DNA of 34,406 bases from Saccoglossus kowalevskii (lineage: Eukaryota > Hemichordata > Enteropneusta > Harrimaniidae): assembly GCF_000003605.2 (NCBI RefSeq), contig NW_003133346.1:145906-180311 (forward strand). Direction: 5' to 3'. The translations under genes and the position numbers were made by a program. Positions within the stretch are counted from its first letter, which is position 1. Every line of letters begins with the position of its first letter. Under the pieces are notes generated by a model that saw nothing but the letters and a program-made list of their open reading frames with translations, was not told the DNA's origin and ran no database searches. This document shows, one piece after another, positions 15,041 to 34,087 of the stretch.

Positions 15041-15342
15041 CTAACATATGCTAATCATAGCAAGTCCATTGTTGAATACGAGACCGTTTTTTTTCATAAA
15101 ACTTAACGTTATTATTTCGTCGCGAATATACTTTAATTGGGACTGTGATTATGATAAATAGTCCAGACGTTGCACATGTGGCTGGAAATATGTGCGCATT
15201 AGAGTTATTGGTCTCTCCTGAGGCCGATATCAAGAATTATTGTCCCAAAGTGGCAGTTATTGGCCGAAGCTGACAATTATTGTTATTGGCCGAAACCAAG
15301 GACAATATAGGTGTTTTATTACCCTCCAAAACAGACAGTAAG

Positions 15343-29162: not shown

Positions 29163-30303
29163 TTAGCCCCCACCCGGACAAAATCCGTGAGGGGCTTGTA
29201 GTTTTGTCTTCGTCAGTCTGTCAGTCCGTCTGGAGTGATTTCTCGGAGATGGCTTGACCGATTTTGTTGAGACTTGTTACAAAGACAAAGGGATCACCCA
29301 TACAGATGCACGTTGTTTTTCTTTTTTGAAATGATAAAATATGGCCGACTGGCAGCCATTTTGATTGTTAATCATGGCTTTTGTCTGCCCATTGATATTT
29401 CTCAGAGATGACTGATTTCAATGATACTAGGTACAAAGACACAGTGAGGAGGTATACACATACATGGATGTATTTCCTGATTTGATCTGGCGGCAATTTT
29501 CAATGTCAAAATCCTGTAAAATCCATTTTTTCGGTGTGTCCATCATCATTTCTCGGAGAAGCCTGGGCTGCCTGAAGCCTGCTGAGACTTGGTACAGAGT
29601 GACCACTAGTACAGATCACAGTCCCTCTATCCCTCTAGCGGGACTGTGTACAGATGCACATTGATTTATTTTTTCAAGAAATCAATTAATGAGCTCATTT
29701 GCATATTTAATTATTAATTTGAATTCTTGTTAATATCTTGTGAACTAATAGTTCAAATCAGACCAAACTTTGTGGAGACTTGATTTGTCAATATAAGATG
29801 TGTGCTATGCAATATTGACTTTCAACTTATTTAACAAGCTCATTTGCATATTTAATTAATTTTGAATTTTTCTTAAATAATATCTTGTGAACTAATTGAC
29901 CGAATGAGCCCAAACTTGGTATAGACTTACTTGATCTGTCAATATAAGATGTGGGCTATGCAATATTGACTTTCAACTTAATTAATGAGCTAATTTGAAT
30001 ATTTAATTCATTTTGAATTTTTGTTAATATCTTGTGAACTAATGGTTCATATATTTGCTATTTAATATTGACTCAATTGAATTTCCATATTCAATTGATT
30101 GTGCATTTTTGTTAAAATTGATGCAAATTTCACCAAATTCAATAGAGATGTCCTAGCTGTTAACTTTGAGTAACATACTTTTGATTTACAACTTAATTTT
30201 CCTACCCGATTTTATACATATATATTCAAACTTTATAATTCATAGTCAACTATAATCACATTTGACAAGTGGGGCTTTGTCATCTTCAGATGACTTGTTT
30301 TGT
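29163..30303. repeat. composite dispersed repeat built of about 140-150-bp units
   Basis: The left end is a foldback, AGCCCCCACCC...GTGAGGGGCT. Units then recur with ATTTCTCGGAGATG, GAGACTTGGTACA, TACAGATGCAC and GGCCGACTGGCAGCCATTTT markers (about 29240, 29395, 29545). A second unit type follows: GAGCTCATTTGCATATTTAA, TCTTGTGAACTAAT, ATAAGATGTGGGCTATGC. These copies start at 29692, 29837 and 29988 (spacing 145 and 151), then decay after 30060. The right end carries GTGGGGCTTTGTCATC, whose first part is inverted relative to the left AGCCCCCAC. It is probably a non-autonomous transposon with internal tandem repeats. Frames inside it (for example 29464-29664) are not genes. Confidence 0.7.
29610..29655. 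mobile_element. 32-bp palindromic mini-element inserted in a repeat unit
   Basis: CACAGTCCC...GGGACTGTG (29617-29648) is bounded by exact TACAGAT repeats (29610-29616 and 29649-29655). Counting the preceding G, GTACAGAT matches for 8 bp. The uninterrupted sister unit at 29301-29307 reads ATACAGATGCAC with one TACAGAT only. Removing the element plus one repeat restores the sister sequence, so this is an insertion. The family is shared with 34052-34080. Confidence 0.85.
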
Positions 30304-34044: not shown

Positions 34045-34087
34045 GTATGTTCACAGTCCCTCTATGTTAGAGGTACTGTGGTATGTT
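34045..34087. mobile_element. 29-bp palindromic mini-element with 7-bp target duplication
   Basis: CACAGTCCCTCTA-TGT-TAGAGGTACTGTG (34052-34080) is a hairpin with 13-bp arms and one mismatch. Exact GTATGTT lies on both sides (34045-34051 and 34081-34087); with the adjoining G the match is 8 bp. The arm CACAGTCCCTCTA is identical to that of the element at 29617. Confidence 0.85.

Follow-up and report, generated by a model that had tools for sequence, protein, structure and literature searches.

Organization of the palindrome locus

The palindrome investigated here is found in a window of 34,406 nucleotides (the whole stretch of Saccoglossus kowalevskii DNA that was analysed; contig NW_003133346.1, positions 145,906 to 180,311 of the forward strand). 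It is 32 bp long, with arms of 13 nt that are 92% complementary, and is embedded in an interspersed repeat (the host repeat) present in many copies in the genome. The locus has the following features:

29230 to 30045 (edges approximate; strand not given): host interspersed repeat with internal units of about 150 bp
29610 to 29616, forward strand: left copy of the duplication TACAGAT, read in the sequence
29617 to 29633, forward strand: left arm CACAGTCCCTCTATCCC, exactly nucleotides 1 to 17 of the type-4 terminal inverted repeat (TIR; see below)
29634 to 29635, forward strand: two-base filler TC, read in the sequence
29636 to 29648, reverse strand: right arm TAGCGGGACTGTG, which corresponds to 13 nt of the opposite inverted repeat apart from one substitution
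29649 to 29655, forward strand: right copy of the duplication TACAGAT, read in the sequence

The left arm was assigned by exact arm matching (17 nt, type 4) and by type-4 ends read elsewhere in the genome; exact matching counts only 9 of the 13 nt of the right arm. Loci L010 and L011 carry an otherwise identical palindrome with TAGAGGGACTGTG on the right arm. The window palindrome can be parsed into 17 nt from a type-4 end, the filler TC and 13 nt from the opposite end.

The first-pass annotation had described a 32-bp palindrome between exact TACAGAT copies, and a sister unit of the host repeat with a single TACAGAT at 29301-29307 as its empty counterpart. Both descriptions are accurate: the flanks of 29617-29648 match over 7/7 positions and the sister site is single and empty in the window sequence. 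The assembly searched has 572 Mb in 4830 contigs. A search with window positions 29560-29720 returned 41 rows (40 of 66 candidates scored), among which only the window's own spans the hairpin. Thirty-nine rows begin at query position 81-91, at or past the right end of the hairpin, and one covers query positions 21-57 directly beside a row for 89-161 on the same contig (C850), which corresponds to an empty site. No second allele of the window locus is among the matches listed for this search of one assembly. The TACAGAT site is likewise single and empty in the seven other host-repeat copies that were read (L002-L008). The hairpin, absent from every other copy seen, is not a fixed part of the host repeat, and the 7-bp duplication together with the empty paralogous sites bears out the earlier proposal that transposition occurred at this site. 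What inserted there was most likely a longer element of the P superfamily that has since gone.

Matches to CACAGTCCC number four on both strands of the window, against 0.16 expected in shuffled sequence. They include a second palindrome:

34045 to 34051, forward strand: left 7-bp duplication GTATGTT
34052 to 34080, forward strand: second excision scar, 29 bp, made of a 14-nt left arm, GT and a 13-nt right arm with one substitution (exact matching counts 6 nt of this arm)
34081 to 34087, forward strand: right 7-bp duplication GTATGTT

Inspection by eye of the single matches near 15139 and 12787 revealed no 7-bp duplication, and they were left out of the scar count. The window has no tRNA match and no Rfam match. 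Its positions 1-2445 are occupied by a long satellite array with a 15-bp unit (CCATACAGTGTACAG; 171.7 copies, 83% match), in which several frames are open on both strands.

Related palindromes in the genome

The 32-mer of the window, with up to three mismatches, is found at 11 places including the window itself (control, 0). Ten of them were displayed (L018 was not): the flanking 7-bp duplication is 7/7 in the window, L010, L011, L012, L013, L015 and L016, 6/7 in L017 and L019, and 5/7 in L014. One substitution aside, the window 32-mer is that of L010 and L011, whose duplications differ from it (ATTAGGT and GTTTAAC), and it is nearly that of L012.

A looser palindrome, CACAGTCCC N{4,34} GGGACTGTG, has 477 matches in the genome while its reversed control has none. 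Sixty-nine matches are longer than 34 bp, leaving about 408 of 22-34 bp; this figure is approximate because nested matches are counted apart and a start with two ends may fall in both sets. The sample used below comprises 92 of these palindromes, named scars hereafter: 49 places from the first 50 of the 477 in contig order (the nested row C310:61078 was dropped) and 43 from the first 50 of the 69 (seven were common to both lists). They have 86 distinct sequences, with different middles, so that many near-identical copies of one internal sequence, as expected of a MITE, are not found among them. Four sequences recur among the 92; like the 32-mer that the window nearly shares with L010 and L011, they may be repeated repair outcomes.

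Flanks were read for 35 scars (15 loci and 20 further ones out of the 49 places, in contig order). The 7-bp duplication is perfect in 21 of the 35 and matches over at least 6/7 positions in 29, compared to 0 and 9, respectively, of 1190 cross-paired flanks (these pairs include one misplaced right flank, that of L025, at a contig end). Duplications of 4, 6, 8, 10 or 11 bp gave no perfect match in the 35 scars, and those of 5 and 9 bp one each. Six scars have no good 7-bp duplication (one with 5/7, five with 4/7 or less, among them L025 with 4/7). Other genomic copies flanked by 7-bp direct repeats, for which the first-pass annotation had suggested a search, thus exist.

A 21-bp scar (17 nt plus TGTG) at L035, L046, L058 and L059 has near-identical left flanks at the four loci and near-identical right flanks at three. 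This scar apparently spread by copying of its carrier repeat, with which it was inherited.

End types and length of the arms

Where an end is not part of a short palindrome, nucleotide 17 is followed by CGGT, in most cases with GAAACG a few bases further on. Such ends are of four types (the slash marks nucleotide 17):

Type 1: CACAGTCCCTCTATCAC / CGGTCTGGAAACG (L043; L049 and L052 have GGCAAC for GGAAAC)
Type 2: CACAGTCCCTCAACACC / CGGTTGGGAAACG
Type 3: CACAGTCCCTCCACAAC / CGGTTATGAAACG
Type 4: CACAGTCCCTCTATCCC / CGGTCTGGAAACG

The 184 arms of the 92 listed scars range from 9 to 17 nt when matched exactly, on both sides, against the four types; 29 are exactly 17 nt long and none is longer. 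Arms of at least 9 nt were required and those with a substitution score short, but palindromes up to 52 bp were allowed, so that longer arms could have shown. When substitutions are allowed, at least five of the six parental bases at positions 18-23 are found on one of 180 sides, where the sequence CCGGTG may equally be the full opposite arm.

The same limit appears when ends are searched by their first 17 nt. These counts were made by eye, with the two ends of one scar counted separately. For type 1, the matches listed up to C2974 (100 of 163 for 17 nt, 100 of 166 for base 18, 100 of 126 for base 21) give 95 rows, of which 13 have base 18 and 12 continue through base 21; the thirteenth, L061, is an intact end with a substitution. 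For type 2, the matches listed up to C2949 (100 of 111) give 66 rows, 15 with base 18 and 13 through base 21. Base 18 is therefore missing in 82/95 and 51/66 listed ends, while 25 of the 28 ends that have it continue through base 21. Among 30 type-1 loci that were read, seven are intact ends and the eighteenth base is found in none of the other 23. This 17-nt ceiling is the reason to place the transposase cut 17 nt inside each end.

Junctions and the excision model

Filler between the arms is found in 73 of the 92 scars, 12 are flush and seven have an overlap of 1-2 nt. Filler is over-represented in this sample because 43 rows were contributed only by the search for palindromes longer than 34 bp; the 49 scars of the 477-match search alone have filler in 31, a flush joint in 11 and an overlap in seven, a tally made before type 4 was recognised, which shortens a few fillers. 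Fillers of at least 4 nt (n = 57) match TIR arms over 0.65 of their length against 0.46 when shuffled, and none of 1000 shuffles reaches 0.65.

We interpret the window palindrome as the excision footprint of a P-superfamily transposon rather than as a tiny mobile element, a reading to which we assign a probability of about 0.93. On this reading, a longer element whose left end, at least, was of type 4 would have inserted into the host repeat and duplicated TACAGAT, as shown by the duplication and by the empty host-repeat copies. The transposase would then have excised the element, cutting one strand 17 nt inside each end, and each chromosome end would keep the 7-bp duplication and a 17-nt 3' overhang of the inverted repeat. 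Being identical in sequence, the two overhangs are unable to anneal along their length, and the break would therefore be sealed by end joining, probably of the polymerase-theta type, using short microhomology and templated filler. The arms being inverted repeats of each other, the resulting scar is palindromic and does not exceed 34 bp when filler is absent. In the window joint, the 3' end TCCC may have primed on the complement of TIR positions 6-9 and copied TCTA, after which TA would pair with the other arm (17+4+13-2 = 32). The filler TC and the following TA may accordingly be a templated copy of TIR positions 10-13, and such a two-step repair would explain why the same joint is found at L010 and L011 with other duplications.

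Conservation of both duplications, as expected of a footprint, is observed in the window (7/7) and in the sample (at least 6/7 in 29 of 35), and at most 17 nt of each inverted repeat are retained (184 arms by exact matching; the left arm of the window has 17). The likeness to P-type excision junctions is strong. Among the scars examined in the one assembly, no pair of occupied and scarred alleles was found.

The first-pass annotation had instead taken the element of about 30 bp itself to have moved. As an ultra-short MITE, it would depend on a transposase acting in trans. Such an element would leave 7-bp duplications, as found at most of the sampled copies (at least 6/7 in 29 of 35), and near-identical 32-mers at loci with different duplications, of which there are a few. 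It does not account for the 86 distinct sequences in 92 scars with four end types, for arms that stop at 17 nt or less although the inverted repeat of L079 extends to 30 matching nt (see below), or for the fillers and tandem partial arms within the scars; moreover, movement of Drosophila P is said to require a minimum of 138 bp and 216 bp from its two ends (PMC1562414). Palindromes with these properties look like independent repair scars and not like copies of a micro-element, and we consider mobility of the palindrome itself highly improbable.

Parental elements

Four elements have both ends running past nucleotide 17:

C770: type 4, 1138 bp, duplication 7/7
C2229: type 4, 1130 bp, duplication 7/7
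C1912: type 4, 1016 bp, duplication 6/7
L079: type 3, 1132 bp, duplication 5/7 by eye

In L079 the match between the two ends is 30 nt long, and the inverted repeat thus extends far beyond nucleotide 17. Four others have one intact end, the opposite one being cut back to 16-17 nt and followed by other sequence:

L043: 616 bp, duplication 7/7; right end matches 16 nt only
L060/L061: 318 bp, duplication 7/7; left end 17 nt
L080: 347 bp, ATTGGTA on both sides; left end 16 nt
L081: 167 bp, CCATAAC on both sides; left end 17 nt

Target duplications of 7-8 bp characterize the P superfamily, and parental elements have them: they are 7/7 at L043, L060/L061, L080 and L081 (the last two by eye), L119/L120 and L123/L124, and 6/7 at L121/L122.

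The one-sided elements bear on a further explanation, in which the scars would be extreme internal deletions left by interrupted copying from the sister chromatid, their break points being set by repair and not by the transposase. L080 and L081, in which one end is intact and the opposite arm gives way to other sequence after 16 or 17 nt, are derivatives that abortive gap repair would produce, as are L060/L061 and L043 with its 16-nt right end. Interrupted copying should nevertheless yield arms of any length, whereas none of 184 exceeds 17 nt. In the one-sided forms, too, the scarred side ends after 16-17 nt, which would follow if synthesis from one side had reached an uncopied 17-nt overhang and been joined to it. 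We give gap repair very little credence as the source of the scars, and retain excision followed by end joining.

L078, with two type-1 ends 2.4 kb apart, was considered as an autonomous element. Its left end is a 21-bp scar, flanked on both sides by GTCAGTC, and the two ends are therefore separate places. At C2613, three ends of a variant type (CACAGTCCCTCTATACCC; 153471, 153595 and 153657) point the same way in a stretch of about 200 bp and may form a tandem array of ends.

Transposase and zinc-finger-like ORFs

L052 (C346) has a type-1 end and, 1.4 kb inward of it on the reverse strand, a fragment that matches PF21788, the GTP-binding insertion of P transposase (E=1.6e-7). A forward ORF beginning with MWK (L052:1692-2105) is found near the same end and shows one weak match to a C2H2 zinc finger that falls short of the Pfam cut-offs. 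In the genome search PF21788 has two matches, at C346 and C1630, both accompanied by a family end and by the MWK zinc-finger-like ORF. This ORF has nine matches in the genome. Six of these are located 190-270 bp inward of a listed end that continues through base 21, and share its orientation (C346, C172, C3164, C3482 and C3810, type 1; C3703, type 2). At the remaining three (C1630, CACCGTCCCTCAACACCCGGTTAAGAAACG; C2224; C2758) a diverged end, found with up to four errors allowed, is present at the predicted spot in every case.

C1630 carries, besides PF21788, a match to PF21787 (E=1.1e-27) in a 610-aa ORF (L065). Its transposase domains face the MWK ORF from 3.6 kb; at C346 the PF21788 fragment and the MWK ORF face each other 0.9 kb apart. 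The 610-aa ORF gave only PF21787 at E<=0.1, with no THAP domain, in a scan covering that ORF alone, and its similarity to the solved Drosophila P transposase (6p5a) is weak (E=0.0048), no single stretch being significant alone. The PF21788 match holds two stop codons at C1630 and one at C346, and no more than one end was found at C1630. PF21787 has 13 matches in the genome, of which 12 are not linked to family ends; in the 3.2-3.4 kb around each of the 13 only partial end-like matches were found, in L075 and L069/L072, and C1630 was linked to family ends later through its zinc-finger-like ORF. None of the loci read holds a complete element in which two ends enclose an intact transposase.

A P-type transposase combines an RNase H with a GTP-binding insertion. 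The P-type transposase domains beside family ends at C1630 and C346 suggest that the parental elements belong to the P superfamily, and the MWK ORF is possibly a second gene of the element. That the link between transposase and ends comes from these two loci, with no complete element among those read, would also suit footprints of a transposase from outside the superfamily whose cut falls about 17 nt inside by coincidence. Against this stand the P-specific domains beside these very ends, the 7-bp duplications known in the P superfamily (Galileo, PMC4168063) and the description of a 17-nt stagger as unusual among cut-and-paste transposons (PMC7776569). A transposase of another kind is thus very unlikely, and a P-type enzyme remains our preferred source of the footprints.

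Comparison with known systems and implications

For P transposase, the cleavage site on the 5' strand is 17 bp within the 31-bp inverted repeats (PMC7776569), and after excision the ends keep 17-nt 3' overhangs (PMC2895639). Complex insertions at the excision junctions are more frequent in flies with polymerase theta (PMC2895639). The Drosophila melanogaster footprints (Chan et al. 2010, PMC2895639) have the architecture found here: between the two duplications lie two stretches of inverted repeat, each of at most 17 nt, joined through microhomology or templated filler. No isolate in Table 1 of that work is listed as retaining more than 17 nt. That set has an 8-bp duplication and is experimental (Table 1 in a Rad51 (spn-A) mutant), whereas the S. 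kowalevskii scars have a 7-bp duplication and stand by the hundreds in one genome.

Galileo, of the same superfamily, also makes 7-bp duplications, with the consensus GTANTAC (PMC4168063); the 21 perfect duplications identified here have only a loose bias (position 6 is A in 17 of them and position 2 is T in 12). It differs by its long, internally repetitive TIRs in Drosophila, and the passages surveyed describe no footprint catalogue (PMC4168063). Zebrafish Pdre2/THAP9 is a non-insect P-superfamily transposon excised by its own transposase (PMC10983969), with a 13-bp TIR (PMC7776569) and an 8-bp duplication; its excision by zebrafish THAP9 in fly cells gave larger flanking deletions, and genome-wide scars are not described in the sections surveyed (PMC10983969). 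The P-MITEs of Anopheles gambiae (PMC1562414) are short non-autonomous elements with P ends, like the parental elements of about 1.1 kb found here, but have 8-bp duplications and just under 100 bp of P sequence per end, with no forms of 22-34 bp described in the part surveyed. Standing scars with filler were also read from genomes for rice DNA transposons, where 94 putative excisions came from the comparison of two rice species and the surveyed text describes no 17-nt arms (PMC4423477). In the open-licence literature searched, neither the 13-mer CACAGTCCCTCTA nor a recognisable footprint catalogue of P-type elements was found.

The following reading, taken as a whole, has in our opinion somewhat better than even odds. 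The lineage would carry, or have carried, a two-gene P-superfamily transposon, with the zinc-finger-like gene beside one end facing the P transposase. Its ends would vary mainly at positions 12-17, just before the cut, with positions 1-11 and CGGT nearly fixed. The hundreds of footprints would be a natural record that the 17-nt stagger of P transposase holds here too, and joining of the theta type would have repaired these germ-line breaks.

Excision footprints as a kind are already known. New are their presence by the hundreds in one genome, pointing to a 17-nt stagger, and possibly a two-gene P family. Palindromes of 20-35 bp with duplications, easily called micro-MITEs, can be footprints, and caution is warranted in their annotation. 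Measurements of where P transposase cuts come from Drosophila, and the generality of the unusual 17-nt stagger across the superfamily is not addressed in the passages surveyed; standing scars allow the stagger of the cut to be read straight from the genome and provide hundreds of repair junctions of one defined break.
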